A stretch of 64,000 nt of DNA from Bosea vaviloviae (GTDB taxonomy: Bacteria; Pseudomonadota; Alphaproteobacteria; Rhizobiales; Beijerinckiaceae). The DNA lies in NCBI RefSeq assembly GCF_001741865.1, contig NZ_CP017147.1, positions 5,633,001-5,697,000 on the forward strand, in the 5' to 3' direction. Shown here in pieces: positions 7,258-63,732 of this stretch. The notes under the pieces were generated by a model, which was given only the letters and a program-made list of their open reading frames with translations, had not been told where the DNA came from and made no database searches. The first letter of the stretch is position 1. The number at the start of each line of letters is the position of its first letter. The translations under genes were made by a program, and so were the position numbers.

Positions 7258-7349
7258 CGCTCAAGATCTATGAAGGCCTGCCGCACGGCATGTGCACGAC
7301 GCATCCGGACATCATCAATCCGGACCTGCTCGCCTTCATCAACGGCTGA
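7258..7349 (+). pseudogene. 3' fragment of alpha/beta hydrolase gene
   Basis: Read in the hydrolase frame it gives [18 protein letters not shown] and continues to AFING before TGA, matching the last 30 residues of the intact gene at 1456-2286, including the catalytic-His motif. No 5' part or start site is present. It is most simply the displaced 3' end left when cargo was inserted within or beside the hydrolase gene. Confidence 0.85.
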
Positions 7350-7391
7350 TCTCTGGGAGCGAGGCAGCCTCGGCTCGTAGGGCCGGGGCTG
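7258..7391 (+). repeat. Right imperfect direct repeat
   Basis: This is an ungapped copy of 2195-2328, including the hairpin, on the far side of the nuclease-ietAS cargo. Differences are scattered through both coding and non-coding parts, as expected of diverged alleles rather than a fresh duplication. Confidence 0.9.
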
Positions 7392-9129: not shown

Positions 9130-9220
9130 GGGGTGACCTCCGTATCGGGCCTATGTCACGTCTCGTGCGCGACACCATCCGACCAGATGAGGAGCTTGAC
9201 CGCAATCACGCGGGCGCGAG

Positions 9221-9405
9221 CTAGCGCGCCTTCGGCAAGGTGAGCGCGAAGACGAGAAGGCCCAGGAGCTTCAGCCCGAAGCCCGCCCATACGGCGGACA
9301 GCAGGCCGTAGCCGGCCGCAATCGTCGTGCTGCCCGCCCAGGCGCCGATGGCGTTGGCGACATTGAGCGCCGCGAGGTTCATGGCGCCCATCAGCGTGGG
9401 CGGAG
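9221..9405 (-). pseudogene. C-terminal remnant of an MFS transporter gene
   Basis: On the minus strand a 60-codon stretch ending in TAG reads LMGAMNLAALNVANAIGAWA and later ends GLLVFALTLPKAR. This is the typical last two membrane segments of a sugar/drug-efflux MFS protein. There is no start or upstream part; the preceding bases belong to the 3' end of the PLP-lyase locus. I read it as the residue of a deletion or replacement next to the lyase operon. Confidence 0.6.
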
Positions 9406-9489
9406 AGCGCGCAGGTGACCTGCATCGGCCTTGAAATTTACCACACGCATGCAGCCCGACATGCGGAGAATGCGTCAGCTGTTGTCGGC

Positions 9490-10707: not shown

Positions 10708-10740
10708 GGCAAGCTCCAGGGGAGAAAGAACAGCGGCGGC

Positions 10741-11694
10741 TCACAGATCCAGGACGATCTGACCGGTGGCTCGGGACACGCAAGGTACGAACCTGTGGCT
10801 TTTGGCCTCCGGGGTCAGCACGGCGTCGCGGTGGATGGGCTCTCCGCTGACAAAGCCGCACTCGCAACTTCCGCAGACGCCATTCTCGCAGGACGAAAGA
10901 AGGGGAACGCCTGCGGCGCGCAGCACGGTCAGAGCCGAAACATTGGCAGGAACCTCCAAGTCGCGCCCGCTTGAGCGCAACTTCATCGTGAACGCCGTCG
11001 GCACGAAATCGGGGTCAGTGTCGGGCTGAAAGGCCTCGAAATGGACCGTATTGGCTTGCCAATGAGCCGCGCTGGCCTTCGTCCAAGCCATGAAGCCCGG
11101 CGGACCACAGTAGTAGAGGTGCATCCCGTTTGGCTGATCCTTCAGCAGGTCCGCCATGTTGATGACGGTATTGGGGTCGTCGTCAAAATGAAGCTTGAGC
11201 GAGCAGCTGGGTATCTCGGCTTCGAGTTCCGCCAACAAGGGAGCGGAGGAGCGACTTCTGGCGAAGAAGTGAAGAACAAAAGCTCGTCCGTCCCATTTCA
11301 GCGCTCGCGCCATAGATATCATCGGCGTGACACCGATACCTCCTGCCAGCAGGAGATGGGACTTGGCTGCGTCGTGCAGTTTGAAATGATTGCGTGGCGT
11401 CGAGACAGCGACGACGTCACCGACATTCAAATTCGCGTGAATCCAGGCGGAGCCGCCTCGACCACCATCTTCTCGTTTTACCCCGATCACGTATTTTGAC
11501 AGGTCCGCGGGGTTGCCCATCAGCGAATACTGTCGAACTCTCCCGTCAGGCAGGTGCACGTCGACATGCGACCCAGCGTCGAAAGCGGGCAGCAGGGGGC
11601 GCCTCGGGTGGCGGAACTCGACGACGTTCACGTCACCGGGCCCGCGGTGAAGGTCTACAACCTCCATCTTCATGATGAGACGCGGGGCAGCCAT
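10741..11694 (-). CDS. PDR/VanB-type oxidoreductase with C-terminal 2Fe-2S ferredoxin domain
   Basis: The 317-residue protein follows phthalate dioxygenase reductase architecture. The flavin-binding barrel has RQYSLMG (55-61), the NAD(P)H domain has GGIGVTPM (118-125) and YYCGPPG (194-200), and the plant-type ferredoxin domain has C269, C274, C277 and C305. It passes electrons from NAD(P)H via FMN to an iron-sulfur centre and then to an oxygenase or other acceptor. No Rieske oxygenase is nearby. The partner here may be the MOSC protein whose gene ends four bases upstream, as MOSC proteins often pair with ferredoxin-like modules. Confidence 0.88.
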   Translation of the reverse strand: MAAPRLIMKMEVVDLHRGPGDVNVVEFRHPRRPLLPAFDAGSHVDVHLPDGRVRQYSLMGNPADLSKYVIGVKREDGGRGGSAWIHANLNVGDVVAVSTPRNHFKLHDAAKSHLLLAGGIGVTPMISMARALKWDGRAFVLHFFARSRSSAPLLAELEAEIPSCSLKLHFDDDPNTVINMADLLKDQPNGMHLYYCGPPGFMAWTKASAAHWQANTVHFEAFQPDTDPDFVPTAFTMKLRSSGRDLEVPANVSALTVLRAAGVPLLSSCENGVCGSCECGFVSGEPIHRDAVLTPEAKSHRFVPCVSRATGQIVLDL

Positions 11695-11698
11695 TACT

Positions 11699-12199
11699 CT
11701 AACTCTCCAGGGGAACGATGCGATCGCCGGGGCGAATGACGCCCCCGACCTCGATCGCGCAGTTGAGGCCTGACCGGTTCAACAGCGACTCGAACAGCCT
11801 CGGTATTCCGAGCAGCTCCTCGATATACTTGCAGGGGAAGTTCAGCCGCGCGCCCCGAAGCACCACGTCCCCGACCTTGAAACGCTTACCGACGAGGTGG
11901 TTCAGCGGGACGCCCCTCGTCGTCAGATTGCGGCGATGATCGGCGGGGGCGAGTTTCAGCTTTATGCCGGGAACCTGCGGCTCCCCGACCTCCAGATGAT
12001 CGAGCACCTCGGCCTCGATCAGAGTCACCTCGCGCACCGCCGGCCTCGCGGAATACGTCCCGGTGCCGACATAATACCGATCGCCTTCGATCCCCTTCCC
12101 GGCGATCAAATTTGCCTGGGACAGCTCTTCCATCTCGTAGGAAGCGGCGGGAGCGATGTGGATATGACGAAGCTCCCCAGACCAGCCTTGCGCGATCAT
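11699..12199 (-). CDS. MOSC domain protein
   Basis: This 166-residue single MOSC domain has KGIEGDRY at 35-42 and two conserved cysteines, C123 in NFPCKYIE and C147 in LNCAIE; the first is the usual molybdenum-cofactor sulfur ligand position. MOSC proteins bind molybdopterin and reduce N-hydroxylated or N-oxide compounds or transfer sulfur. It is first in the operon with the 2Fe-2S reductase (4 bp gap) and the Cys/Met lyase. Its start lies just downstream of a CAAC-TT-GTTG dyad shared with a second promoter region, so it is probably controlled by the divergent XRE-cupin regulator. Confidence 0.85.
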   Translation of the reverse strand: MIAQGWSGELRHIHIAPAASYEMEELSQANLIAGKGIEGDRYYVGTGTYSARPAVREVTLIEAEVLDHLEVGEPQVPGIKLKLAPADHRRNLTTRGVPLNHLVGKRFKVGDVVLRGARLNFPCKYIEELLGIPRLFESLLNRSGLNCAIEVGGVIRPGDRIVPLES

Positions 12200-12219
12200 T
12201 CCTGCCTCTTAGATACATC

Positions 12220-12234
12220 AGACAACTTGTTGCC
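12220..12234. promoter_or_regulatory. Candidate XRE-cupin operator 1 (AGACAACTTGTTGCC)
   Basis: CAAC and GTTG form a dyad with a two-base spacer, 20 bases or so ahead of the MOSC start on the minus strand and about 150 bases ahead of the divergent regulator. The same 15-base motif with one change occurs at 13094-13108 before a second amino-acid-related gene, which supports a shared operator. Confidence 0.5.
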
Positions 12235-12381
12235 CCACTGGCTAGCAGACTTTTCTTGACGCTGCAATTGGAGAGATTCAGGCACCGCCGGCTCGATTGC
12301 GCGCGTGCCCCGAGACCTAGTCACCGGCCAGTAGGTGACATACTGATAGGCTGCACCTGCGCAGTGGAACTGGAGCGGAAA

Positions 12382-12975
12382 TTGCCTCCCAGGGTTAAAT
12401 CGATCGAAGACGTCGCGGTGTCGACCAACCGCGACGCAGCGCGCTCATTTGGCCTTCACATGGCCGCGATGAGACGCTCTCGCAAAATGACGCTTGATCA
12501 TCTCGCGGGCATGACGGGTCTCAACAAAGGATACCTGTCGCGTGTCGAGAGGGGAGAGAAGACGCCATCGATTGCGACGGCGTTGAAGCTCTCCCAGGCG
12601 TTCGCCGTCTCGGTTTCCGCTCTCTTCGGGGAGGCTGTCGACGAAACGACGATACATATTGTCAGGTCGCATGACCGCGCCGCTCCCGCAAACCAGCCCG
12701 CTGAGGCATATTTTGAGCCGTTGAGCCAAGCAGCCGGTGGAGTCGAAGCCTTCCTGCTCTACCCGAGCCGCGACTTCGGACCGGACGGCAGGGTCGACCA
12801 TGGCGGAACTGAAATTATCTTTGTCGTTTCGGGCAAGATCGAGATTCAGTTTTCAGATCGCTCGGTGACGCTTGGCACTGGCGATTTCCTCCAGTTTCCC
12901 GGCCATCTCGCGCACCAGCTCAGGGCTTTGGACGGCGGCAGCAGCGCACTCGTCGCGGTCACCAGGGAGAAGTAG
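12382..12975 (+). CDS. XRE-family regulator with C-terminal cupin domain
   Basis: The product has an N-terminal lambda-repressor-like HTH (LHMAAMRRSRKMTLDHLAG, then GYLSRVERGEKTPSIATALK) and a C-terminal cupin-2 barrel (DHGGTEIIFVVSGKIEIQF, then LGTGDFLQFPGHLAHQL). Such proteins sense small metabolites in the cupin pocket and often control amino-acid or sulfur metabolism. I chose the TTG at 12382, six bases after GGAG; a GTG at 12418 is the alternative. It diverges from the MOSC-reductase-lyase operon. A GTCACC/GGTGAC inverted repeat around 12319-12340 in its leader could be an autoregulatory site. Confidence 0.82.
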   Translation: MPPRVKSIEDVAVSTNRDAARSFGLHMAAMRRSRKMTLDHLAGMTGLNKGYLSRVERGEKTPSIATALKLSQAFAVSVSALFGEAVDETTIHIVRSHDRAAPANQPAEAYFEPLSQAAGGVEAFLLYPSRDFGPDGRVDHGGTEIIFVVSGKIEIQFSDRSVTLGTGDFLQFPGHLAHQLRALDGGSSALVAVTREK

Positions 12976-13093
12976 AAGCCCCTCCGCTTCAGGCTCCTCG
13001 AACCCGCCACACGTTGTCTTGCTGCGGGCTATCAGACCTCTGCCCTCGCTAGGCCGGGCCTCGCTTGACCAGGCGCGTTCGCGATGATGTCTT

Positions 13094-13118
13094 AGACAAC
13101 CTGTTGCCTAACAGGTTC
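13094..13118. promoter_or_regulatory. Candidate XRE-cupin operator 2 with overlapping dyads
   Basis: AGACAACCTGTTGCC (13094-13108) repeats the motif at 12220 with one change. It overlaps a second dyad, AACCTGTT pairing with AACAGGTT (13099-13118). It lies about 40 bases ahead of the truncated ABC ATPase reading frame. Confidence 0.5.
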
Positions 13119-13159
13119 CTGGAGGCGGAACTCATGATAGTGGGGAGATAAATCCTTGG

Positions 13160-13508
13160 GTGCGCCGAAACCAACCTCATTGGAACACGCCTACGGCGGT
13201 TCAGATGATCAGCGCCAACACGTGGTCCGGCGAGGTTCACGTGTTGCGCGACATCAATCTGAAGGTGTCCCGCGGTGAGAAGCTCGTGATCGGCGGGCTA
13301 TCGGGCTCAGGCAAGTCGACGATGATCCGCTGCATCAACCGCGTGGCAGAACACCAGAAGGGCCAGATCATGGTCGACGGCACGGAGTTCACCAACGATC
13401 TCCGGAAGATCCACGAGATCAGCCGCGACGTCGGAACGGTCTTCCAGCATTTCAACCTGTTCCCGCATCTGGCGATTCCCGAGAACCTGAGGCTGGCACC
13501 GATCTGGG
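13160..13508 (+). pseudogene. Truncated polar-amino-acid ABC transporter ATPase
   Basis: The frame matches the AapP/GlnQ group: EVHVLRDINLKVSRGEKLVI, Walker A GLSGSGKST, IRCINRVAEHQKGQI, and the Q-loop VFQHFNLFPHL, then NLRLAPIW. Family members continue for about 130 more residues with the ABC signature, Walker B and H-loop. Here the similarity stops near 13508 and unrelated sequence runs into the tRNA. Family-typical residues are also altered (GLSGSG for GPSGSG, NTWSG for NKWYG). I read it as the 5' part of an amino-acid importer gene lost by deletion. No permease or binding-protein genes remain. Confidence 0.8.
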
Positions 13509-13621
13509 CCATCTTGGTCGAGCCCGAAAAAATCCGCCTCATCGGTAGAAACGACAACTTCGACAGGAACTTGCGGAGCCATGCCGCCGGCCGCGGGCCG
13601 GTTCGCAATTCTGATCGGAAA

Positions 13622-13697
13622 TGGTGGGCCGGGCCGGACTCGAACCGGCACCGGCGCTGTTATGAGCAGCGAGCTCTAACCATTGAGCTACCGGCCC
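13622..13697 (-). tRNA. tRNA with CAT anticodon (Ile2/lysidine type or elongator Met)
   Basis: On the minus strand the 76 bases fold into a complete cloverleaf. The acceptor is GGGCCGG/CCGGCCC, the D arm GCTC/GAGC, the anticodon stem CGCTG/CAGCG around loop CTCATAA, the five-base variable loop is CCGGT, and the T arm is GCCGG-TTCGAGT-CCGGC. The encoded 3' CCA follows the discriminator A. The anticodon is CAT. The GGGCC acceptor and GGTTAGAGC D-loop resemble tRNA-Ile2, whose CAT is converted to lysidine-AT by TilS, more than elongator tRNA-Met. A truncated gene abuts its 3' side. Confidence 0.9.
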
Positions 13698-13822
13698 ACA
13701 CCCCGCGTAACATCGCAGCCGCGCTTCGGGCAAGGCCGGTCTGAGCGCAAAGGCCAGTTTGACGATATGCGCAAAACCATTGGGGCTAACGTCTGACGAT
13801 TTAAGCGGGAACCAATCCGTCA

Positions 13823-13855
13823 TTCCAGGCTCAGGCCGAAGGCCTGAGCCTGGAA
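13823..13855. repeat. Perfect 15-bp-stem hairpin
   Basis: TTCCAGGCTCAGGCC and its exact complement flank a GAA loop. It lies in the 433-bp stretch without genes between the tRNA and the chemotaxis gene, which otherwise holds the repeat at 13872-13947 and no recognisable gene. Confidence 0.75.
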
Positions 13856-13871
13856 CCCATTAACACGAGGA

Positions 13872-13947
13872 GTCATTCTCGGGCGCAGCGGAGTGGAGAC
13901 CCGAGAATCTCGGGCAAGAGATGCTCGGGTCAAGCCCGAGCATGACG
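13872..13947. repeat. Dispersed intergenic repeat with GTCAT...ATGAC ends
   Basis: The element begins GTCATTCTCGGG and ends CCCGAGCATGAC. It contains several complementary CTCGGG/CCCGAG segments, so it can form nested hairpins. It resembles, but is not identical to, the elements at 18164-18278 and 33586-33692 in having complementary outer ends. Confidence 0.55.
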
Positions 13948-14130
13948 TTGCTCCAGCGGCTCTGGGTTCCGGGCTCGATCCTGCGGATCGCCCCGGAATG
14001 ACGGCGGTGGTTCCAAATCAGATCGTCGCGCTCCAGCGCAAAACGCAAGTTCCAGCGCAAAACGAATGCCCCCGCCGCCTTGCGGCAGCGGGGGCGTGAA
14101 GGGCTTCGCCTTGGGGTTAGGCCGCCGGTC

Positions 14131-16542
14131 TCAGGCGGCTTCCGCGATCCGGGGATCCTCGCCATGGTCGGCGATATGGCCCTCGCGGAACTTGAAGCGG
14201 CCGATATGCTCGGTCAGCGCGCGGGTCTGCTCGTCGGTCAGGGCCAGCGCCGCATTGGTCTCCTCGACCAGCGCCGCATTCTGATGAGCCATGGTGCCGA
14301 TGCCGTCGATCTCATTGTTGATCGCCGAGACGTCGGTGGCCTGGCTCCTGGCGGTCTGCGAGATGCCGTTCATCAGCCCGGTCAGATCGTTGACCGAGGC
14401 GACGATGGCCTCGAACATCGCCGAGGTCTCCTCGACCAGGCCGACGCCGACCTTGACGTCGCCATGGGCGGCCTCGACCAGCTTCTTGACGTCGTTGGAG
14501 GCGTCGGCCGAGCGCTTGGCCAGGCTGCGCACCTCGGTCGCGACGACGGCGAAGCCGCGGCCGCTATCGCCGGCGCGGGCTGCCTCCACCGCCGCATTGA
14601 GCGCCAGCAGATTGGTCTGGAAGGCAATCTCGTCGATCATCGCGATGACCTCGGAGATCTTGTTCGAGGAAGAGCGGATGCGGTGCATCGCCTCCAGCGC
14701 GGAGGCCACGACCTTCTCGCCCTGCTGGGCCTGGCTCTCGGCGCCCTCGGCCATGCCGGTCGCCTGAGCGGCCTCGGCAGCGGTCTTCTTGACGGTGCCG
14801 GCGAAGGCGGTGAGCTGGTTCGTCGCCATCGAGACGGCGTTGCTCTCCTCGCTGGTGCGCTCGGCGAGGTCGGTGACGCCGTCGAGAATCTCGCTGGTGG
14901 CGCTGCGCACGGCCGCGACCGTGTTGGAGAGCCGCGCCAGCGTGCTCTCGAACTCTTCGGCCAGGCTGTTGGTGCCGTTCTTGAGCTCGGCGAAGGCGCC
15001 CTGATAGCGCCCCTCGACGCGGGTCGAGAGATGACCGACCGAGAGCTCGGCCAGCACGTCGCAGGTTTCCGACAGGCCGGCCTGGACGGTCTCGAGCAGC
15101 GCATTGACCGAATCGGCCAGCGCGTTGAGCTCGGCATCGGCGAAGGTCGCGGCGACACGCGGGTTGAAATCGCCGGCGGCGGCGGCGGCGACGACCTCGC
15201 CGAAGGCCGCGCCGAGCTCGGCCATCATCTCGCGGCGCTGCTGCTGGGCCTTTGCCTCGTCCTCGATCTTGGCCGCTTCCGCCGCGCGCAGCGCGACCGC
15301 ATTGTCGCGGAACAGCAGCACGCTCTTGGAGATGTCGGCAATCTCGTCATTGCCCTTGGTCTGCACGACCGTCTCGAGCTGGCCATCGGCGATCGCGCGC
15401 GTCGCGGCCCAGAGCCGGTTCAGGCGGCCGACGATCATCGGGCGGACATAGAGCAGCGACAAAGCCAGCGCGACGAGGAGCGAGCCGATGCCGACCGCGC
15501 CGAGCCAGAGCTTGCTCTGCTCGATCAGCGTGCGGGTCGAGGTGCTGGAGGCGACGGCCTCGCCGCGCGCGCTCTTGACGAGCTTGTCGACCTGCCCGCG
15601 CAGCGCCTCGGCCGCGCTGCCCACGCCGCGCAGGCTCGCAGTGATTCCCTCCTGCGTGGAAAGGTCACGCTGGCGCACGCTGAGGACGCCTTCGCTGCCC
15701 TCGCCGACATCGATGACCGTGTTGATGGCGCCGACGCGCACCTTGTTGGGGACGATCTTCTCGATCGCCGACAGATCCTTGCGGATGCGCGCCACGATGG
15801 CAGTGAAGCGGTCGCGCGCTGCGCTCAGCTTTGCCTTGTCGTCGATCTGCGCGATCTCGCGCAGCAGGCCGATCAATTCATTGACCTGTGCCTCCAGCTT
15901 CCGCGCCAGGTCGAAAGCCTGGAAATCGCGCTCGATCAGCCCCTGGATCGAGGCATTGAGATCGTCTCCGGTCAGGCCCTTGACGCTTTCCATCCCCATC
16001 AGGATGTTGAACCGGGCCTCATCCGCCTCGGCCCCGACCACTCCGACGAAAACGCCCCGCGCCTTCGACAATTGTTCGAGCGAGGCCTGCATCGCCGCCG
16101 CATTGCGCAGCCGCTCTCCAGTCAGGTCGTTGATGTCGTTGATCTGGCGCGACAATTCATCGACGCCGGTCTGGATCGGCTTCATGTCGATGGCGTCGAG
16201 CGTGGCGATGCGGCGGATGAGATCGAACTGGCGGGCCTCGATGGTGTCGAGCTCGCCGGTCAGCTTCGCGCGCTGCTGCACCGTGGTGACATCCATGAAG
16301 CGGGGCGCCAGCGCCGTCGACTGCGTCGCTGCCTGCGAAAGCTCGAGCGAAAGCTCCACCGTCGGCATCTTGCGCTCGACCGTCTCGGAGACGGTCTGGT
16401 TGACGCGATCATAGGAGAACCATGCCACCAGCGAGGCCACGATCGTCAGCACCGTGAGCAGGCCGAGCGCTGCATAGATGCGCGCAGCGATGCCGATGCG
16501 AAGCGGCGTGCGCTGGCGCGCGGGCTTCGTAGCCTTGGTCAT
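14131..16542 (-). CDS. Methyl-accepting chemotaxis protein
   Basis: This 803-residue protein has a first membrane segment (IYAALGLLTVLTIVASLVAW, about 18-40), a long periplasmic helical sensor of roughly 280 residues, and a second membrane segment (GAVGIGSLLVALALSLLYV). A HAMP region and a cytoplasmic signalling domain follow. The conserved hairpin tip reads DEIAFQTNLLALNAAVEAAR and FAVVATEVRSLAKRS. It should sense a ligand in the periplasm and control CheA. I chose the ATG at 16542 because GGAGAG lies eight bases upstream; an open frame extends a further 46 codons. It lies alone, without che genes. The C-terminal tail lacks a CheR-binding pentapeptide. Confidence 0.93.
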   Translation of the reverse strand: MTKATKPARQRTPLRIGIAARIYAALGLLTVLTIVASLVAWFSYDRVNQTVSETVERKMPTVELSLELSQAATQSTALAPRFMDVTTVQQRAKLTGELDTIEARQFDLIRRIATLDAIDMKPIQTGVDELSRQINDINDLTGERLRNAAAMQASLEQLSKARGVFVGVVGAEADEARFNILMGMESVKGLTGDDLNASIQGLIERDFQAFDLARKLEAQVNELIGLLREIAQIDDKAKLSAARDRFTAIVARIRKDLSAIEKIVPNKVRVGAINTVIDVGEGSEGVLSVRQRDLSTQEGITASLRGVGSAAEALRGQVDKLVKSARGEAVASSTSTRTLIEQSKLWLGAVGIGSLLVALALSLLYVRPMIVGRLNRLWAATRAIADGQLETVVQTKGNDEIADISKSVLLFRDNAVALRAAEAAKIEDEAKAQQQRREMMAELGAAFGEVVAAAAAGDFNPRVAATFADAELNALADSVNALLETVQAGLSETCDVLAELSVGHLSTRVEGRYQGAFAELKNGTNSLAEEFESTLARLSNTVAAVRSATSEILDGVTDLAERTSEESNAVSMATNQLTAFAGTVKKTAAEAAQATGMAEGAESQAQQGEKVVASALEAMHRIRSSSNKISEVIAMIDEIAFQTNLLALNAAVEAARAGDSGRGFAVVATEVRSLAKRSADASNDVKKLVEAAHGDVKVGVGLVEETSAMFEAIVASVNDLTGLMNGISQTARSQATDVSAINNEIDGIGTMAHQNAALVEETNAALALTDEQTRALTEHIGRFKFREGHIADHGEDPRIAEAA

Positions 16543-43805: not shown

Positions 43806-44744
43806 ATGGCGGGTCATGCTCTCTCCTCGATGAGGTTCGCCATGACCGTTGCCTGCGCCGCAGCGCCGATCCCCGCCAAGTCCGCCTTCGACTCGACGAC
43901 GCTGGGGCTGGCGATCTTCACGATCATCGCCTGGGCCTCGGCCTTCCCCGCGATCCGCGCCGCGCTTGGCGGCTTCGGGGCGCTCGAACTCGGCGCCGTG
44001 CGCTTCGCCATCGCCGCCGTGCCGGCCGCGCTGTTCCTTGCCGTCACCAGGCCAAAGCTGCCGGAATGGCGCGACGCCTGGCGCTTCGGCTTCGGCGGGC
44101 TCGTCTTCGTCGCGGGCTATACCGTGCTGCTCAATCTCGGCCAGCAGACTGTCTCGGCAGGCGCAGCAAGCTTCATCATCAACATCAACCCGATCATCAC
44201 GGCAGCGCTCGCCATGCTGGTGCTGGGTGAGCGTTTCACCGGCAGCCAATGGCTCGGCAGCGCGATCTCGCTCGCCGGCGTCGGGGTGATTGCCTTCGGA
44301 CAGAACGGCGCGGCGCTCGATCTCGGCATCGGCGTGCTGCTCGTGCTCGGCGCGGCTTTGTGCAACTCGCTCACCACCATCGTGCAGAAGCCGCTCTTCG
44401 CTCAGCACAAGCCGCTGACGGTGACGGCCTGGAACATGGTGGTCGGCGGCCTCCTGCTCTCGCCCTTCCTGCCCAGCGGCATCGCCCAGGCGCAGACGGC
44501 CTCGACAGCCAGCCTCTACGCCATGTTCTATCTCGCCATCGTGCCGAGCCTGATCACCTACGCGACCTGGACGACGCTGCTCTCGCGCCTGCCGGCGGGC
44601 CGCGCCTCGAACCTGCTCTATGCCGCCCCGCCGGTCTCGCTCCTGATCAGCTATCTCTGGCTCGGCGAAGTGCCCAGCCTGCTCGGCATTCTCGGCGGTG
44701 CGATGGCGCTGGGCGGCGTCGTCATCGTCAATCTGAAGCGCTGA
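43806..44744 (+). CDS. DMT-family (EamA) transporter
   Basis: The 312-residue product has ten membrane segments in two EamA repeats: TLGLAIFTIIAWASAFPAIR opens the first and LGIGVLLVLGAALCNSLTTI the second. The family exports amino acids, metabolites or drugs. I chose the ATG at 43806, with in-frame ATGs at 43830 and 43842 as alternatives; the last would remove a poorly conserved leader. An open frame reaching far upstream is antisense to the LysR gene and not part of this protein. Confidence 0.87.
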   Translation: MAGHALSSMRFAMTVACAAAPIPAKSAFDSTTLGLAIFTIIAWASAFPAIRAALGGFGALELGAVRFAIAAVPAALFLAVTRPKLPEWRDAWRFGFGGLVFVAGYTVLLNLGQQTVSAGAASFIININPIITAALAMLVLGERFTGSQWLGSAISLAGVGVIAFGQNGAALDLGIGVLLVLGAALCNSLTTIVQKPLFAQHKPLTVTAWNMVVGGLLLSPFLPSGIAQAQTASTASLYAMFYLAIVPSLITYATWTTLLSRLPAGRASNLLYAAPPVSLLISYLWLGEVPSLLGILGGAMALGGVVIVNLKR

Positions 44745-44789
44745 CGCCGCGCTTCCAACCCGGCGGCGGGGCTGCGATACTGCCCCGCC

Positions 44790-45344
44790 ATGCCTGTGAC
44801 GATATTCCTCCTGCGCGCCGTCAATCTCGGCGGCGCCAGCACCATCAAGATGGCGGCCCTGCGCGCGCTCTGCCCGCCGCTGGGCCTTCGCCATGCCGCG
44901 ACCCTGCTGCAGAGCGGCAACCTCGTCGCCTCCCATGACGGCGAGGCGCGCGACACAATCGCCCTGAAGCTGGAAGAGGCGATCGCTGCCACGCATCCGA
45001 TGCGCCCGCGCGTGATTGCCCGCAGCGAGGCCGAGCTGCAGGACATCCTGACGCATTCTCCGCTGCGGGCCGCAGAGCGCCAACCGAACTGGCTTCTGGT
45101 GATGCCGCTCGACGCGGCCCCGGCCAAAGGCGCAATCGACCACCTGCGCGCCTGGCATAAGGGGCCCGAGGAGATCGGCCTGCGCGGCCGTGACCTCTAT
45201 CTGCACTACAGCGAGGGCATCGGCCGCTCGAAACTGACCAATGCCGTGATCGAAGGGCATCTCGGCGTGCAGGGCGCGGCGCGAAACTGGACGACACTGA
45301 CGAAGCTCGCGGCGCTGGCCCAGGAGGTCGCCGGCCATGGCTGA
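44790..45344 (+). CDS. DUF1697 protein
   Basis: The 184-residue product matches the DUF1697 family throughout: IFLLRAVNLGGASTIKMAAL near the start, AATLLQSGNLVASHD, and GIGRSKLTNAVIEGHLGVQG with ARNWTTLTKLAALA at the end. The function is unknown; the family is a two-domain ferredoxin-like fold. Its last codons overlap the next gene, an acetyltransferase, by eight bases, so they are coupled. Confidence 0.9.
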   Translation: MPVTIFLLRAVNLGGASTIKMAALRALCPPLGLRHAATLLQSGNLVASHDGEARDTIALKLEEAIAATHPMRPRVIARSEAELQDILTHSPLRAAERQPNWLLVMPLDAAPAKGAIDHLRAWHKGPEEIGLRGRDLYLHYSEGIGRSKLTNAVIEGHLGVQGAARNWTTLTKLAALAQEVAGHG

Positions 45345-45876
45345 GACTGAAGGCGACGTCACGATCAGGCAGGTCAGTGCCACTGACGCGGAAGCCTATC
45401 GGGCCTTGCGCCTCCAGGCGTTGCTTCAGGCGCCCGAGGCCTTTGGCGCGAGCCATGCCGACGAGGCGGCGCGCCCGCTCGCAGCCTTCATCGCGCGCAT
45501 CACGCCTGCCCCGCCGAGCCTCGTCTTCGGGGCATTCGCGAAGGCGGAGCTGGTCGGCATGGCGGGTTTCCTCGCTGGGAACTCCGAGAAGAACCGGCAT
45601 CGCGGCACGCTCTGGGGCGTCTATCTCGCACCGGACTGGCGCGGCCGCGGTATCGCCCGTGCTCTGGTCGAGGCGGTGAGAGCCCATGCGGCGCAGCATG
45701 TGCTGGTGCTGCAGGCGCGCGCCGTGACGACCAACAGCGTCGCACTGCGCCTCTATGAACAGCTTGGCTTCAAACCCTACGGCATCGAATCGAAGGCGCT
45801 ACGCATCGACGGCGCGCTTTTCGACGAGGCGCTGCTGGCGCTGGATTTTTCGGAGGCCGAGCAGGTGGATGGCTGA
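45337..45876 (+). CDS. GNAT-family N-acetyltransferase
   Basis: This 179-residue GNAT fold has the acetyl-CoA pyrophosphate-binding loop in YLAPDWRGRGIARALVEAV and the closing ALRLYEQLGFKPYGIESKAL. It would transfer acetyl from acetyl-CoA to an amine; the substrate is unknown. It overlaps the DUF1697 gene. Its last 120 bases, from VALRLYE onward, are repeated with about ten differences at 48826-48946, beyond the phospholipase-like cargo. As with the hydrolase at 1456, this may be a hybrid gene whose 3' end arrived with the island. Confidence 0.9.
   Translation: MAETEGDVTIRQVSATDAEAYRALRLQALLQAPEAFGASHADEAARPLAAFIARITPAPPSLVFGAFAKAELVGMAGFLAGNSEKNRHRGTLWGVYLAPDWRGRGIARALVEAVRAHAAQHVLVLQARAVTTNSVALRLYEQLGFKPYGIESKALRIDGALFDEALLALDFSEAEQVDG
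45737..45857 (+). repeat. Left imperfect direct repeat of island 2
   Basis: These 121 bases of the GNAT gene 3' region align without gaps to 48826-48946 with about ten mismatches by eye. The copies bracket the PI-PLC-like gene and its paralogous partner. Confidence 0.9.
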
Positions 45877-46247
45877 TCGAACGCTCAGCCCCATCCTGCC
45901 GCTTGGCAAAAACGGTACCGACTTTTGATGTTTACGGAAGATCTAATCCGTAAGGTTCATACTCACGACATCGTCAACTTCAAGCGGAAGGCGAGCCTCG
46001 ACGAGAGTGGCTGTTCCAGCGGAGCTGGTCGGGATTGCTCAGCCAGAGCTGCTACGAATTGAGTGCGCTCTCGGAACAAATTGACCCGCCTGCACCTGCG
46101 CTCTCACCCAGCCTGCAGTGCCGCGAGTTGCAGCGCCTGTTCGCTGACGGCGAGACGATGGTCGGGAGGAAGTCCCGGATCCCAGGTGGGCTTCGGGAAG
46201 ACCGCGCGCCGTTGCGCCGATCATGCGTGTCCCAGGCGCGCGAATGC
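45877..46247. other. 371-bp gap at the left side of island 2, with a 22-bp dyad
   Basis: No gene is recognised. TTACGG and CCGTAA (45932-45953) flank a centre with AGATCT, about 55 bases after the GNAT stop codon. The dyad might be a recombination or regulator site at the island boundary. Confidence 0.45.
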
Positions 46248-47807
46248 TCATCCTTCGTTGTCGGATACGCTGAACTCGTCGGGAAACTCGAAATAGCGGA
46301 AATTGGACGCGATCATGAGCTGCGTGATGGTCATCGGCCCATAGGTGCTCGTCAGATAAGCCGTGTCCTCGAAATCGAACAACGACCAGCCGAGGCTACG
46401 CGGGCGCTTTTCGCCGGACTGCTGCCCGAAATAGCTGAGGATGAAACCGATGGTCTGGACCTTGAAAACAGCCGCCTGCGCGGCGGTGGCGAAGTTCACG
46501 AGAAGCTCACCGGATTCCGCATGGCCCATCGCCGCGAGCCAGATGCGAAACTTTTCCGCATCGTGGCTCGGGTACGGAAGAACCCACTGATACTGGTCCT
46601 GGATGTAGAGCGGAAACAGCCGCGTTGGCGGCCGCTCATCGAAATGCTGGCCGCTGGGATCCAGCTTAGGCGCCGGAATGGTTGGGCCAAAGCGCTCGTC
46701 GTCCAGCTCCGTCTCTTCGAGGCGATTCAGGAAATAGATCTTTCCGCGGACCTCCTTCAGCGTCGGCAATCCGCTGCTGATCAGTTTGGGAACGTCGTCG
46801 ATCTGCGCGGCGAGAGCGTCATAAACCAGCCCTTTTTGCTTTTCGAAGCCGCCCCAATCCTCGATCTTGAGCATGGCGGCAACAAATTCGTCCGGATGTT
46901 CATCGAGGAACCGCATGATTTCGCCGAGCACGCTGGCGAAGAGATCGAAGTCTCCCCTGACGGGCCCCTTCCCGTGTGCCGTGCCGAAATAGAAGCCGCC
47001 AGCGTCCTGGAACACGGATAGGCGGATGTCGAGCAGGCGAATGCCGCTCATGAGCTGCTGGTAGATCGTGCGCTCATGACATGACCATGGATCCCAGAAC
47101 CCGCCCGCGCCGACGGCGGCGCTGTCATGCGTGCCGGGAAGGTTGATGTCCGAGATGAGGATGCTCGGGGCCAGCCCACTCAGCCAGTCCGGCTGATCCG
47201 GTATGCGATAGGTCGTGCCGAACCATGGCTGCAGCCCGAAGGCATTCTTGTTGGAGTGGGTGATATTGAACATCTCGCGAATCGTTGCCGCTTCGGTCGT
47301 CACCGGAATGATCGGCGCGCCCGAACCGCGATATGCGATCGCCGGGCTTCCGACCCACCAGTTATTGCCGTCCGAGTTGCTGCCCTGGCCCGTATACAGG
47401 AGGATCGTATAGGGCGTCCTGTCATCGAAGTCGGGCGTCGCCGCAGCGCCGATATCGATGGTCACATAGAGACCGAAGAAGAAATTGAGCTCCCGCGGCA
47501 CCCGGTCGCCAGCCGAGGGGTTGTACATATGGTCCTCGCCTTCGCATTCCGCGATGAACGCCTGGGCGATCGGGCTGGTCTTGTGGCGCCCGCAGACGAC
47601 CGTGATCTCCCATGTGTAGCCGTTCTGGTTGATCTTGAGCGGCTGGCCGTCGGGGTCGGGGCCGGGCTGGCCGGCGCTGATCTGGAAGCTGTTGTTGACA
47701 TATTGGACATTGAGGATCTTTGGGCTCGTCAGCGACACCATGTTGTCATGGGGCTCGACGCCTCCGACCGCTTCCGGATGCGATGCGCTCAAGACCTGTT
47801 CAGGCAT
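46248..47807 (-). CDS. PI-PLC-like phosphodiesterase with an unrecognised N-terminal domain
   Basis: In this 519-residue protein residues 205-480 show PI-PLC X-domain features: INLPGTHDSA with His227 and Asp228, SGIRLLDIRL, FGTAHG with the second catalytic His278, then FLDEHPDEFVAAMLKIED. Such enzymes cleave phosphatidylinositol or related lipids without calcium in the bacterial type. Residues 20-197 form a separate domain of unknown family, paralogous to the neighbouring 185-residue protein. There is no signal peptide. AAGGAG lies seven bases before the ATG. The position between duplicated GNAT 3' ends marks it as accessory cargo. Toxin, effector or lipid-modifying roles are all possible; I cannot choose from sequence. 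Confidence 0.8.
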   Translation of the reverse strand: MPEQVLSASHPEAVGGVEPHDNMVSLTSPKILNVQYVNNSFQISAGQPGPDPDGQPLKINQNGYTWEITVVCGRHKTSPIAQAFIAECEGEDHMYNPSAGDRVPRELNFFFGLYVTIDIGAAATPDFDDRTPYTILLYTGQGSNSDGNNWWVGSPAIAYRGSGAPIIPVTTEAATIREMFNITHSNKNAFGLQPWFGTTYRIPDQPDWLSGLAPSILISDINLPGTHDSAAVGAGGFWDPWSCHERTIYQQLMSGIRLLDIRLSVFQDAGGFYFGTAHGKGPVRGDFDLFASVLGEIMRFLDEHPDEFVAAMLKIEDWGGFEKQKGLVYDALAAQIDDVPKLISSGLPTLKEVRGKIYFLNRLEETELDDERFGPTIPAPKLDPSGQHFDERPPTRLFPLYIQDQYQWVLPYPSHDAEKFRIWLAAMGHAESGELLVNFATAAQAAVFKVQTIGFILSYFGQQSGEKRPRSLGWSLFDFEDTAYLTSTYGPMTITQLMIASNFRYFEFPDEFSVSDNEG

Positions 47808-47844
47808 GGGGGTGTCTCCTTCACTCGAAGGGAATAGTCGAAGG

Positions 47845-48402
47845 TCAGAACCAAGCGTTCAGTGCGAACCCGCTGTCGGTGTGCCATCCGAGCTCGAACA
47901 CCTGGGCTGTCAGTCCGCTCGGCGAGATGAGCGGGAGCACCGCGCTTTTCCCGTCCGGCGCGGCGATCGCGCCGCCGCCGATCCACCAGTTGTTGGCGAG
48001 AAGCCAGCTACCCTGGCCGAGATAGATGTTGGTGTTGAACGTCTCGTCGCCAATCAGGAAGGTGACGACCACGCCGAAATAGAAATTGAGCTCCTCCGGC
48101 GATCGATCGCCGATTTTCTCCAGCTTGTAGAGATGATCCTCGCCGCCGCAGATATTCTTGAAGGACTGCGCGACCGGCCTGGTCTTCACCCGGGCGCCGG
48201 GCATGTTGAGCTTCCACGTGCCGCCTTCCGTGGGCTTTGGAATCTCAGGTTCCAGATCGTGTGGCATGCCGTCGGAAAAGACGAGCGACCCCTTGATGTA
48301 GACGATGTTCTGTATCGCTTCTGAGGAGAGCAGCACAATATTGTCGGGCAACGCGTCCGGCACGCTCGCATCTCCGCCCTGACGATGGTCGACATCGGTC
48401 AT
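47845..48402 (-). CDS. Stand-alone copy of the unrecognised domain
   Basis: This 185-residue protein aligns over most of its length to residues 20-197 of the downstream PI-PLC-like protein. Shared blocks are TRPVAQSF/TSPIAQAF, CGGEDHLY/CEGEDHMY, GDRSPEELNFYFG/GDRVPRELNFFFG, NNWWIGGGAIA/NNWWVGSPAIA and a final FALNAWF/FGLQPWF. I do not recognise the family. It seems beta-rich, without signal peptide or membrane segment. I chose the ATG at 48402 because GGGAGGG lies just upstream. It is 37 bases before the PI-PLC gene on the same strand, so they form an operon. It could be an immunity partner, a subunit or a binding module. Confidence 0.75.
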   Translation of the reverse strand: MTDVDHRQGGDASVPDALPDNIVLLSSEAIQNIVYIKGSLVFSDGMPHDLEPEIPKPTEGGTWKLNMPGARVKTRPVAQSFKNICGGEDHLYKLEKIGDRSPEELNFYFGVVVTFLIGDETFNTNIYLGQGSWLLANNWWIGGGAIAAPDGKSAVLPLISPSGLTAQVFELGWHTDSGFALNAWF

Positions 48403-48825
48403 CGAGCCCTCCCACGACTTGAAAGAGGCATGCTGCGGCGCACACAACAGCCTTGGTTGCGGTTCCTCAGAGCGATAGCAAAGAAATCGGGAACGCCAGA
48501 ATACAACAGGTCGCAAAGCACAAATCAAGCATAGAACATGGGCTTTTGGCCTTGTTTGCGGGCAATTGTGTTTTGAACATTTGTCCGGCTCAGGAAGATC
48601 CCTCTATGCCGAGTTTCCTCCCCTAGGGCGGACGCAGCAGTCCCGACGGCCTGCAGCCGCTCCACTGGCAGTAGGAGCAAAACAGGTTCCTCCATGGCCC
48701 CCGACAGGGCTTCGAGAGATCCTCTATGATCGAGGCCGTTCTTTCGACGGACGACGCAAAGCGGGTAGCAGAGTCACTACGTCGTCTGAGGCAAATCGGC
48801 CTAAGCGACGCTGCAAATACTGACG
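48403..48825. other. 423-bp gap at the right side of island 2
   Basis: No gene is recognised before the GNAT fragment. The region must hold the promoter of the minus-strand two-gene operon. An open frame starts at 48726 and runs into the GNAT fragment, but its first 33 codons have no family resemblance. Confidence 0.45.
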
Positions 48826-48959
48826 GCGTCGCGCTGCGCCTCTATGAACGCCTCGGCTTCAAGCCCTATGGCATCGAATCGAAGGCGCTGCGCATCGATG
48901 GCACGTTTTTCGACGAGGCGCTGCTGGCGCTGGATTTTTCGGAGGCGGCGCCCGACTGA
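48826..48959 (+). pseudogene. 3' fragment of GNAT acetyltransferase gene (right repeat of island 2)
   Basis: The frame reads GVALRLYERLGFKPYGIESK and continues to FDEALLALDFSEAAPD before TGA, matching the tail of the intact GNAT protein at 45337-45876. Only the last third of the acetyl-CoA-binding half is present. The downstream flank then continues with ordinary chromosomal genes. It is most simply the resident gene's 3' end displaced by cargo. Confidence 0.85.
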
Positions 48960-48979
48960 GCGCCGCGTCGCCGTATCGA

Positions 48980-49240
48980 TCAGCGCGTTCGACGCTCCAG
49001 CGCTTCGGCAAGCCAGACCACGGCCTTGCGCGCCGCGAGCAGGGCCTCGTCCTTGGTCTTGTAGCTCAGGCCGGAATAGTGCTGCACCGGCGTCCAGGCG
49101 CCGCCATCCTCGACGTCGCGCCGGAATTCCTCGAAGCCGAGGCTGCCATCCGGACGCGAGAAGCAATCGACGCAACGATCATGCTCGGCGTTCTCGACGC
49201 TGTCGAAGACGAGCCAGGACGGGTCGATGCGCCCAGACAT
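48980..49240 (-). CDS. Conserved hypothetical small protein
   Basis: The 86-residue product begins MSGRIDPSWLVFDSVENAEH, has two cysteines in RCVDCFSRPDGSLGFEEFRR, then GGAWTPVQHYSGLSYKTKDE and a helical tail. I do not recognise a named family. GAAGGAT lies directly before the ATG. It begins eight bases after the CFA-type methyltransferase stop codon on the same strand, so it is the distal gene of that operon. Confidence 0.7.
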   Translation of the reverse strand: MSGRIDPSWLVFDSVENAEHDRCVDCFSRPDGSLGFEEFRRDVEDGGAWTPVQHYSGLSYKTKDEALLAARKAVVWLAEALERRTR

Positions 49241-49248
49241 ATCCTTCT

Positions 49249-50508
49249 TCAGAATCCCCGCGCTTCTAGCGCCTTCTCGGCATCCGTGATGTAGTCGCGC
49301 ACCACCGGCACCGCGCTCTTATGCGGGCCGAGCAGGAGCTGGAAGACCATGTCGCCGCCAATGTCGAAGGAGATCTCGCAGGCCGAGAGATAGAACTCCC
49401 ACATCCGCGCGAAGCGCTCGCCCATCATCGTCACGACCTCCGGCCGATGGGCCATGAAGCGCTCGCGCCAGGCATGGAGCGTCCAGTGGTAGTGCCGCCG
49501 CCAGAACTCGCAATCCGACGACCACAGGCCTGTCTGCTCGACCGCAGCGAAGACCTCCGACATCGCCGGCGCGTAGCCGCCCGGGAAGATGTATTTGTCG
49601 AAGAACGGCCCGGTGAAGCCCGGCGGCCCGACGCGGCCGATGCAGTGCACCAGCGCAATGCCGTCCGGCGTCAGCAGGTCACGAATGGCCTCGAAATATT
49701 CAAGGTAATGCGCGACGCCGACATGCTCCATCATGCCGACCGAGACGACACGGTCGAAACTGCCCTTGAGTTCGCGATAGTCCTTGTTGATGAAAGTCAC
49801 GGCATCACCGACGCCCGCCGCCTCGGCACGCTTCTGCGCGGCGGCCATCTGGTCGGGCGAGACGTTGAGCCCCGTCACCTTCGCGCCGCAGGCCTTGGCG
49901 AGATAGATCGCGAGCTCGCCCCAGCCCGAGCCGATATCGAGCACGGTCATGCCCGGCTCGATCTTCAGCTTGGCCGCGAGGTGGCGCAGCTTGGCCTTCT
50001 GTGCAGCTTCCAGCCCGACCTCGGGGCTGTGCCAATAGGCACAGGAATAGGTCATCGTCTCGTCGAGCCAGAGCTTATAGAACTCGGTCGGGATGTCGTA
50101 GTGGTGCTTGACCTTCTTGCCGGCGAGCCCGAGCGGATTGTGCATGCGCAAGCGCCGGATGCGGAAGCGGATATTGCGGACGACCTTCTGGATCGGGTGC
50201 TTGCGCAACTCCTTGCGCTGCATCCAGAACAGCGACAGCAGATCGTGGATCGACGAGCCGTCCTCGAAATCAATCCGGCCGTCCATATAGCCTTCGGCCA
50301 GCGCCATCTCCGGATTGAGGAAGATCTCGCGTTCGATCTTGTCGTCATGGAAGCGAACGGTGACGGCCGGCGCCGTCTTCATCTGGCCCGCGAACAGGAT
50401 CTCGGCCGGCCCGGAGCCGAAGACATGGCGCTGGTTGTCAGGGGTTATCACGGTCAGCCGGCCGTGCCGGACGAAGCGCTTCAACAGCTTGGGTAGCAAA
50501 AACATCAT
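49249..50508 (-). CDS. Cyclopropane-fatty-acyl-phospholipid synthase family methyltransferase
   Basis: The 419-residue product has the CFA synthase layout: an N-terminal lipid-binding domain with ALAEGYMDGRIDF, then HYDIPTEFYKLWLDETMTYS, the SAM motif VLDIGSGWGELAIYLAKACG, GMMEHVGVAHYLEYF and a C-terminal FYLSACEISFDIGGDMVFQL. It would use SAM to methylenate or methylate unsaturated acyl chains of membrane phospholipids. An ATG at 50508 fits the N-terminus; a much longer open frame upstream lacks similarity. A small gene follows after eight bases. Confidence 0.92.
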   Translation of the reverse strand: MMFLLPKLLKRFVRHGRLTVITPDNQRHVFGSGPAEILFAGQMKTAPAVTVRFHDDKIEREIFLNPEMALAEGYMDGRIDFEDGSSIHDLLSLFWMQRKELRKHPIQKVVRNIRFRIRRLRMHNPLGLAGKKVKHHYDIPTEFYKLWLDETMTYSCAYWHSPEVGLEAAQKAKLRHLAAKLKIEPGMTVLDIGSGWGELAIYLAKACGAKVTGLNVSPDQMAAAQKRAEAAGVGDAVTFINKDYRELKGSFDRVVSVGMMEHVGVAHYLEYFEAIRDLLTPDGIALVHCIGRVGPPGFTGPFFDKYIFPGGYAPAMSEVFAAVEQTGLWSSDCEFWRRHYHWTLHAWRERFMAHRPEVVTMMGERFARMWEFYLSACEISFDIGGDMVFQLLLGPHKSAVPVVRDYITDAEKALEARGF

Positions 50509-50658
50509 CGCCCTCGGATTCGCTCGAAGCTTAGAGCCGGCGCCGCGCTTGGCAAGCCGCGCGCCCTCGCCGCCTCGCGGAGGCGCTGCCTCCAGCCTCG
50601 CGCAACCCCACTGGATCAGGTTCTCGGGCCGAAGCGCAACGGCAAGAAGGCAACGCGC

Positions 50659-51021
50659 ATGGAAAAACGAAGCTCGAAGCGCTCGCGCTCGCGCCTGCGC
50701 TCGGCGAAGCTGTTCGACGCCTCGCAGCGTTTCCTCGTCGAGTGTCGCATCATCGACCTGTCGCCGAGCGGTGCCCGGTTGAAGCCGGAGAGCGACCGGC
50801 CGTTGCCGCTTGAGCTTTTCTATCACGACGACGACAAAATCTTCGCGCCGGCCGCCCTCATCTGGATCAAGAAGCGCGAGATCGGCATCCGCTTTCTCGA
50901 CGAGGTCACAGCCGAGGACAAGGCGGAGGCCCCCGAGACTCCCGAAGCGGAGTTGCGAAACGCTTCGCCATCGGCCGAGAGCCGGATGATGTCAGATGGA
51001 ACACGAAGTGATCCCATCTGA
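50659..51021 (+). CDS. PilZ-domain protein
   Basis: This 120-residue single PilZ domain has a basic N-terminus (MEKRSSKRSRSRLRSAK) supplying the R-x-x-x-R motif region and IIDLSPSGARLKPE, the D-x-S-x-x-G motif. PilZ domains bind c-di-GMP, so this may be an effector for cyclases such as the PAS-GGDEF-EAL protein in this window. The C-terminal 35 residues are low-complexity and acidic. AAGG precedes the ATG. It diverges from the CFA-type gene. Confidence 0.87.
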   Translation: MEKRSSKRSRSRLRSAKLFDASQRFLVECRIIDLSPSGARLKPESDRPLPLELFYHDDDKIFAPAALIWIKKREIGIRFLDEVTAEDKAEAPETPEAELRNASPSAESRMMSDGTRSDPI

Positions 51022-51048
51022 CATCTGAATCCGTCTCTCATCCCGGAG

Positions 51049-51103
51049 TGAGAGCGGGATCAATGCGAAAAACCGGTTTCCACTTTTCCGCATCCTGCTC
51101 TAG
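51049..51103. repeat. Family B repeat copy
   Basis: AGAGCGGGATCAATGCGAAA is followed by AACCGG and TTTCCACTTTTCCGCATCC with GCTCT at the end, so it can form an imperfect hairpin. It resembles 63682-63732 most closely. Confidence 0.65.
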
Positions 51104-51156
51104 TCGTGGCGGGACCGGCCGCAGGAGGCTGCCGGCAAGCGGCGAACGGCGAGACC

Positions 51157-51849
51157 ATGTCCTGGCGCGATTTCTGGAACGGCGAGCATTCCATCTACGT
51201 TTCGCCGCGCCACAAGGCGCTGCATTACCGGCAGATCGCCAGGGATCTGGTCGGGCAGATCCCGGCCTCCGACGCCGTCGTGCTCGACCATGGCTGTGGC
51301 GAGGCCTTGAGCGCCGACCTTGTCGCCGCCGCCTGCGGCAAGCTCTATCTCTGCGAGGCGGCGCCGAACGTCCGCGAACGGCTGCGCGCGATGTTTGGAC
51401 GCATCGGTCATCTCGCCGTGGTCTCGCCGGAGGAGGTCGAGGCGCTGCCGGAGGCAACGCTCGACCTCGTCGTGGCGAATTCGCTGATCCAGTATCTCAG
51501 CCGCGAGGAGCTCGTTGCCCTGCTGCGCACCTGGCTCGCCAAGCTCAAGCCGGGCGGCAAGCTCGTCATCGCCGATGTGATCCCGCCCGATGTCAGCCCG
51601 CTCACCGACGCCTCGCAACTCCTGGCCTTCGCCTGGCGCGGCGGGTTTCTGGCGGCAGCGCTGGCCGGCCTCGTGCGCACCGCCTTTTCCGACTACCGCA
51701 AGCTCAGGGCGCAATACGGGCTCTCGACCTATGCGGCGGAGCAGATCACGGCGCTGATCGCGCAGGCCGGTTTCGAGGCCATCGCGCCGGCCAGGAATTT
51801 CGGCCACAATCCACACCGTATGACCTTCGAGGCGAGGCGTCCCGGCTGA
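51157..51849 (+). CDS. Class I SAM-dependent methyltransferase
   Basis: This 230-residue protein has motif I VVLDHGCGEALSADLV, motif II region GHLAVVSPEEVEALPE, the VANSLIQYLSREEL segment and LKPGGKLVIADVIPPD (motif III). It belongs to the broad methyltransferase-11/25 group; the substrate is unknown. I chose the ATG at 51157 (MSWRDFWNGEHSIYVS) because this N-terminus is family-like; the earlier frame overlaps the repeat. It is followed after 101 bp by a DsbA-like gene. Confidence 0.88.
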   Translation: MSWRDFWNGEHSIYVSPRHKALHYRQIARDLVGQIPASDAVVLDHGCGEALSADLVAAACGKLYLCEAAPNVRERLRAMFGRIGHLAVVSPEEVEALPEATLDLVVANSLIQYLSREELVALLRTWLAKLKPGGKLVIADVIPPDVSPLTDASQLLAFAWRGGFLAAALAGLVRTAFSDYRKLRAQYGLSTYAAEQITALIAQAGFEAIAPARNFGHNPHRMTFEARRPG

Positions 51850-52613: not shown

Positions 52614-52712
52614 GAGCAGTTTCCGATCCCATTGGATCGTTCACTGCTCTAGATCCTTGTTTTAACGCGTTTTCTTCGCGCGAACCGGTATCCACTTCGC
52701 TCGAAAACGCTC
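52614..52712. repeat. Family A repeat, copy 2 (inverted)
   Basis: GAGCAGTTTCCGATCCCATT, then GGATCG, TTGTTTTAACGCGTTTTCTT and GCTCGAAAACGCTC. It is the reverse complement of copy 1 at 34652-34752 with a few changes, and it follows the DsbA-like gene. Confidence 0.88.
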
Positions 52713-52767
52713 TGGCTCGCCGCCGCAGGAAACGCGCCCCAGGATTTGGACATTAAGGACATATCCC

Positions 52768-62577: not shown

Positions 62578-62678
62578 AGCAGTTTCCGATCCGATTGGAT
62601 CGTTCAACGGCTCCTGCTCTTTGTTTTAACGCGTTTTCTTCACGCGAACCGGTAACCACTTCGCTCGAAAACGCTCTA
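62576..62678. repeat. Family A repeat, copy 3
   Basis: This is the same element as 52614-52712 in the same orientation (AGAGCAGTTTCCGATCCGAT, then TTGTTTTAACGCGTTTTCTT, then CGAAAACGCTCTA). It fills the gap between the convergent paralogue 2 and GNAT genes, and its ends overlap both stop codons. Confidence 0.88.
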
Positions 62679-63603: not shown

Positions 63604-63681
63604 GAAAGGCCCCGAAAGAAGGTCGCGCTGGTGTAGACGCAGCACAGACGCGATACAAGGCATCGACCGTGCCAGCCGAGA

Positions 63682-63732
63682 GCCGGATCAATGCGAAAAA
63701 CCGGTTCCCATTTTTTAGCATCCTGCCCTAGG
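63682..63732. repeat. Family B repeat copy
   Basis: AGCCGGATCAATGCGAAAAA, then CCGGTTCCCATTTTTTAGCA and TCCTGCCC. It resembles 51049-51103 in sequence and orientation. Confidence 0.7.

Follow-up and report, generated by a model that had tools for sequence, protein, structure and literature searches.

Copies of gene 3′ ends bracket small inserts in the Bosea vaviloviae chromosome, including a predicted PI-PLC gene pair beside a GNAT gene

A 64-kb window of the Bosea vaviloviae chromosome (the whole stretch of DNA analysed here, G000:C1:5633001-5697000, where G000 is the 6.71-Mb source genome) includes two minus-strand genes, one of them for a predicted phosphatidylinositol-specific phospholipase C (PI-PLC), that lie between two copies of the 3′ end of a GNAT acetyltransferase gene. 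This raises the question of how a cargo comes to be bracketed by the tail of a gene. The copies form a direct repeat of 129 nt (45734-45862 and 48823-48951), which is ungapped and 90% identical in a repeat search of the window, with 11 mismatches in the first 120 bp. A first-pass annotation of the same sequence had placed 121-bp ungapped copies with about ten mismatches at 45737-45857 and 48826-48946, around a two-gene operon, and both the repeat and its contents were recovered here. This pair and the borders of a further bracketed segment (island 1) form the two longest repeats in the window, and for the pair a blastn E-value of 8e-43 within 1.2 Mb of chromosome excludes a chance match. The right copy lacks the 5′ part of GNAT, and the sequence upstream of it, including ~32 codons, is non-GNAT, bearing out the earlier statement that it is a gene fragment only. 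Likewise, the claim that no recombinase lies inside agrees with the Pfam analysis of the two genes and of ten short frames from the non-coding ends, in which neither an integrase nor a transposase was found between the brackets. No RNA gene was detected at the locus (Rfam on 44500-50500; ARAGORN), and the single tRNA reported by ARAGORN is distant from it, at 13622. In 600-base windows the cargo has a G+C content of 0.57-0.62, against 0.66-0.71 for the flank on its left and 0.62-0.69 for that on its right.

A DNA search covered 66 congeners besides G000, and the 18 best were fetched and examined at the GNAT locus. The GNAT gene adjoins a CFA-type gene in all 18. In 13 of them no more than 585 bp separate the matching GNAT and CFA stretches, and in two (G032 and G008) the gap holds only the region of an 86-residue hypothetical gene. 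The three nearest species (G032, G008 and G001), in which the GNAT orthologues are 85-90% identical, are all empty at the locus and have one GNAT tail. In G032, the left flank is matched up to 45860 and the right flank from 48823 onwards, the lone tail matching both copies. G008 has the same borders, and its right flank is lengthened by 127 bases near 49088. In G001, homology on the left stops at 45852 and the right flank picks up at 49251, with GNAT and CFA spaced ~36 bp apart. The first-pass annotation had proposed a search for relatives in which one GNAT gene is followed directly by the 86-residue gene and the CFA-type gene, and this is the order seen in G032 and, with the 127-bp element in the region, in G008, the two outer genes being closer still in G001. 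The cargo DNA was found in none of the 66 congeners; short cargo matches of 26-70 bp in six of them are taken as chance. These comparisons show that the ancestral order was GNAT then CFA, and that G000 carries 2.96 kb extra relative to its relatives.

Had the cargo lain between tandem GNAT paralogues, decay of one of them would also have left a gene fragment on the right. However, the fragment consists of the last 129 bp only, with non-GNAT sequence upstream, and at the locus neither a second GNAT copy nor the cargo occurs in any of the 18 congeners. A full second GNAT gene with the same cargo, named at the outset as the finding that would point to such decay, was therefore not found among them, and this origin is considered highly improbable.

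Three of the 18 congeners have other inserts in the same gap (G036, 3.75 kb; G013, 7.0 kb; G011, 1.3 kb). Because congeners carry other inserts there, the GNAT-CFA gap is a recurrent insertion site. The G036 insert (L069 4397-7829) includes DUF2169 and DUF4280 genes (Pfam), open reading frames (ORFs) of the G013 insert (L073 ~8500-15477) look similar to these, and the G011 insert includes an HD-domain gene. The ~127-bp insert of G008 (L065 9065-9193), which interrupts the 86-residue gene region, is palindrome-like and 84% like window positions 50978-51104; short dispersed palindrome-like repeats occur in the window at 51050-51103, 52643-52713, 62607-62677 and 63678-63731.

At a probability of about 0.5, the favoured explanation is that a foreign segment entered the GNAT 3′ end by homology and without a recombinase of its own, through a homologous insertion that was either of the single-crossover (Campbell-like) type or one-sided. 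Ordinary recombination, and not a new kind of element, most likely left the structure as its scar. The incoming DNA would have brought a GNAT 3′ end with the cargo behind it, and a single homologous exchange within the tail would have joined it to the chromosome. The incoming molecule is most simply pictured as circular or re-circularised, as in Campbell-type integration, with the circle, a donor and dependence on RecA all presumed. The product would be a complete gene and then the cargo, after which come the truncated segment at which the circle had closed and the native tail; the right copy runs on without a break into the ancestral flank. Since the gene is rebuilt whole, insertions at gene 3′ ends would survive. 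The reading is supported by the direct homologous repeat on both sides of the insert, by the single-copy empty sites in G032, G008 and G001 together with the absence of the cargo from all 66 congeners, and by the finding, described below, of eight direct and zero inverted loci in 1.2 Mb of the chromosome, six or seven of them at gene 3′ ends.

The closest printed product found is that of Escherichia coli conjugation experiments, in which 56 of 60 clones gave a PCR product diagnostic of homologous gene-end duplication, and in which the duplication in 14 sequenced clones measured 109-950 bp and was attributed to a plasmid that had been trimmed and re-circularised and had then undergone a single crossover (PMC3240628). 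Like the arrangement in G000, these integrants have foreign DNA beside a partial gene-end duplication with no site-specific recombinase. They differ in that a laboratory plasmid and selection were involved, whereas the insertion here is natural, its copies have diverged (90%), and its circle is only presumed.

Table 1. Bracketed loci and neighbouring features. Positions are those of the window unless chromosome coordinates (G000:C1) are indicated.
Feature	Position	Strand	Description
Island 1 (locus D)	2195..7391		Copies of hydrolase-gene tail at 2195-2328 and 7258-7391, 93% identical
GNAT acetyltransferase gene	45337..45876	+	Intact, 179 aa; PF00583, E 6.4e-16; 3′ end is the left bracket
Left bracket	45734..45862	+	GNAT 3′ end; join to cargo ~14 bp ahead of stop codon
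Cargo	45863..48822	not assigned	2.96 kb; lower G+C; in 0/66 congeners
PI-PLC protein gene	46248..47807	-	519 aa; N-terminal domain and PI-PLC domain; 1aod, E 2.8e-9; fold match 3v16, E 3e-16
Companion gene	47845..48399	-	184 aa from ATG; N-terminal domain alone
Chimeric ORF	48726..48959	+	77 aa; ~32 non-GNAT codons, then GNAT tail in frame
Right bracket	48823..48951	+	Headless GNAT tail, running on into ancestral right flank; unbroken G032 homology 48823-51835
86-residue hypothetical gene	48980..49240	-	Ancestral right flank; region present in G032 and G008
CFA-type gene	49249..50508	-	PF02353; ancestral downstream neighbour of GNAT in 18/18 fetched congeners
Five gene-tail brackets outside the window	G000:C1 5433570-5435350, 5472353-5475451, 5492779-5494606, 5795874-5797135, 5987698-5989724		
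Locus A			Tail of 839-aa ORF, helicase-like by eye
Locus B			Tail of 476-aa ORF, murD-like by eye
Locus C			Tail of 410-aa ORF, transporter-like by eye
Locus F			Tail of 485-aa ORF, kinase-like by eye
Locus H			Bracket gene is an 89-residue frame read by eye, if that frame is a gene

A scan for low-copy repeats 0.8-60 kb apart, which covered 1.2 Mb of the G000 chromosome with the window included, gave nine direct rows, equal to eight loci (A-H), and no inverted ones. D and E are the two loci in the window, namely island 1 and the GNAT locus. In A-F (six of the eight) the 3′ boundary of the repeat lies no more than 60 bp from the called stop codon, and H is a seventh case if its frame, read by eye, is accepted; G falls outside this rule. 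The tail fragment in A-F and H is always downstream of the intact gene, with the cargo between. Random segments fall within the 60-bp limit with a probability of 0.108, so that at least six of eight loci would do so with P 0.0019 by a rough two-copy binomial. A relative with an empty or near-empty counterpart was found for seven of the eight loci: the sites of E and F are empty in all three relatives compared, and that of H in both of two. Empty sites were also seen for D in G032 and for G in G001. Locus A is carried by G001, with G032 and G008 empty, and locus C is carried by both G008 and G001, with only one tail in G032. At locus F, the three relatives agree with the right copy and with the bases that follow it, and the left copy departs from them just ahead of the stop codon. 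The view put forward in the first-pass annotation, that the GNAT locus follows the same bracket logic as island 1, thus holds, island 1 being cleanly empty in G032 and further loci showing the bracket too. It is this recurrence of the bracket that is the interesting part of the finding. The brackets at 5433570 and 5492779 are common to G000 and sister species, and such inserts can therefore persist.

Integrase-borne islands typically insert at gene 3′ ends and restore that end, and both they and their integrase-less derivatives leave the gene 3′ end intact, with a copy at the far border. The GNAT insert could accordingly be what is left of a site-specific integrative element with the gene 3′ end for its attachment site, its integrase having been lost or acting in trans, and its position at a restored gene end fits this. 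In contrast to such islands, however, neither an integrase nor a remnant of one was found between the GNAT brackets (Pfam, Rfam), the target gene varies by locus, and no core is shared, the left copies of the eight loci having no 11-mer in common and the target genes being unrelated. Together, these features argue against site-specific integration, which is distinctly doubtful here.

Several results of the survey weigh against insertion by homology. Locus B is complex and was not counted as empty, ~640 bp separate the fragment at locus A from the ancestral flank in G000, and the G032 counterpart of locus C sits in a locus with other losses and gains. Despite a search of the 66 congeners and of plasmids by DNA, and of viral contigs by protein pattern, neither a donor nor a circle was found, and a donor search in GTDB contigs gave only distant PI-PLC relatives. 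A gene transfer agent was considered as the vehicle and set aside, its marker PF13547 not being found in G000. Moreover, the pattern may be general rather than special to G000: a 0.4-Mb comparison sample of G012 gave no direct rows and one inverted row, and one of the same length from G055, which belongs to another family, gave three direct rows, of which one is a 1193-bp exact repeat, one a likely paralogue pair, and one a repeat in the 3′ region of a 721-aa ORF, 177 bp before the stop codon. Both samples are too small to call G000 special.

The copies themselves bear on which tail is native. Over 120 bp, the left and right copies differ at 11 positions, the left copy differs from G032 at 8, and the right copy differs from G032 at 5. 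Nowhere in the 120 bp do the two copies have in common a base that G032, G008 and G001 all lack. For a very recent self-duplication ~3.3 such sites per 120 would be expected, as calculated by hand from the 11/397 private sites upstream, and the absence of any has a P of about 0.04, also by hand. As there are no shared private sites, either the duplication is old or one tail was imported. Three-way distances place the separation of the copies near the split from G032. Two further comparisons give no positive evidence of an imported left tail. With 8/120 differences from G032, the left tail is no more diverged than the remainder of the gene (32/397), and, although five G000-private changes in the left copy are clustered at 45744-45774 with none beyond (small numbers), the private changes along both copies give no clean mosaic of native and donor sequence.

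Both tails would be native if the resident tail had been duplicated at insertion, by way of a long target or a small tandem duplication, and the headless copy had then decayed. This would account for a left tail that is not unusually diverged and for a separation of the copies near the G032 split, and the right copies do look decayed at loci A (indels), C and H. On the other hand, the lack of shared private bases speaks against a recent event of this kind, and the copies differ more from each other than either does from G032. Duplication of the resident tail is therefore regarded as unlikely.

A linear fragment could have produced similar borders by homology-facilitated illegitimate recombination (HFIR), in which homologous GNAT sequence anchors one end and an illegitimate join in the displaced GNAT tail, perhaps between sister chromatids, is made at the other, so that a circle is unnecessary. 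The left border lies within GNAT homology and the right border is abrupt at 48823, as this process would predict. A HFIR-like step has been proposed for displaced effector 3′ ends in type VI secretion system clusters (PMC5361080), and inter-chromatid integration during transformation is described for pneumococcus (PMC3784515). G000 also has a ComEC-type gene (PF03772), but such genes are widespread (10 of 14 control genomes) and their presence does not show competence. Furthermore, HFIR products are generally reported with a deletion in the recipient and not a duplication, according to PMC3240628, whereas no recipient deletion is seen here, the flank being complete to 48823 and the tail duplicated. 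We regard HFIR as a rather unlikely route, to be entertained tentatively. The secretion clusters, with their displaced 3′ ends and orphan immunity genes and the Rhs orphaned 3′ regions cited with them, are similar in that insertion shifts the old 3′ end downstream of the newcomer (PMC5361080). There, an effector end is swapped for a different one, whereas the bracketed loci rebuild the same protein tail, and their target genes are ordinary and unrelated.

Under the favoured explanation, homologous insertion at the GNAT tail, the cargo would then have given G000 a predicted PI-PLC extended by an N-terminal domain, along with a protein that consists of this domain alone. The identity of the larger cargo protein is indicated by both sequence and fold similarity to solved PI-PLC (1aod, 3v16). 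H226 and H277 are invariant across 13 sequences and are taken to be the counterparts of the two catalytic histidines of PI-PLC. The protein is thus a predicted PI-PLC that has the domain sequence, the fold and both histidines in common with the bacterial enzymes 3v16 and 1aod and differs from them in its additional N-terminal domain; no Pfam / NCBIfam model reached 0.01 / 0.1 for it. The companion is 39% identical to this N-terminal domain, and with an alternative upstream TTG start at 48528 it would comprise 227 aa. Structure comparison leaves a fungal fruit-body lectin / actinoporin-like fold as a tentative candidate for the N-terminal domain.

A protein search returned 45 proteins, the nearest of which, apart from G000's own, has 42% identity. 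A stand-alone N-domain protein beside an N-domain plus PI-PLC protein, the latter ~31-33% identical to the window protein, occurs in Agrobacterium vitis and Allorhizobium taibaishanense (L092, L093, L095). The Allorhizobium-type module has other surroundings, in L093 lying between aldo/keto reductase-like and ATPase/helicase-like ORFs (by eye). Among the congeners, relatives of the PI-PLC domain were found at the protein level in G007 (41%) and G014 (38%), which gave no GNAT match by DNA. Several of the metagenomic relatives (P0002, P0005, P0008, P0009, P0014) end in KDEL-, HDEL- or HEEL-like tetrapeptides, which resemble eukaryotic endoplasmic reticulum retention signals, and the hosts of these relatives may be eukaryotes. 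The window protein has no such end.

Island 1 carries an Mrr-like nuclease gene together with IetA-like and IetS-like genes, and its cargo is thus an IetAS-like defence cargo. Its bracket copies extend 42 bp beyond the hydrolase stop codon, across a terminator-like inverted repeat. The corresponding site in G008 and G001 has other inserts of ~5 kb (L219 8700-13690 and L220 4089-8848, respectively) with ORFs that are oxidoreductase-like and ABC-transporter-like by eye, and these gave no bracket hit.

It is improbable that the tail brackets serve as a mobility device that perpetuates itself without a recombinase. If they did, RecA recombination between the tails would free the cargo and one tail as a circle, with an intact gene left behind, and the circle could re-enter the same gene in any related cell by one crossover, rebuilding the bracket. 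Small cargoes, the IetAS-like defence genes and the PI-PLC pair among them, would in that case move between cells as gene-addressed cassettes, and clean excision would account for some of the empty sites in relatives. The entry route of small integrase-less islands is often left open. The scar of an intact gene, a cargo and an orphan tail, seen six to seven times in 1.2 Mb with empty counterparts in sister species, can be counted in any set of related genomes, and it gives exact borders for the calling of cargo, defence genes included.

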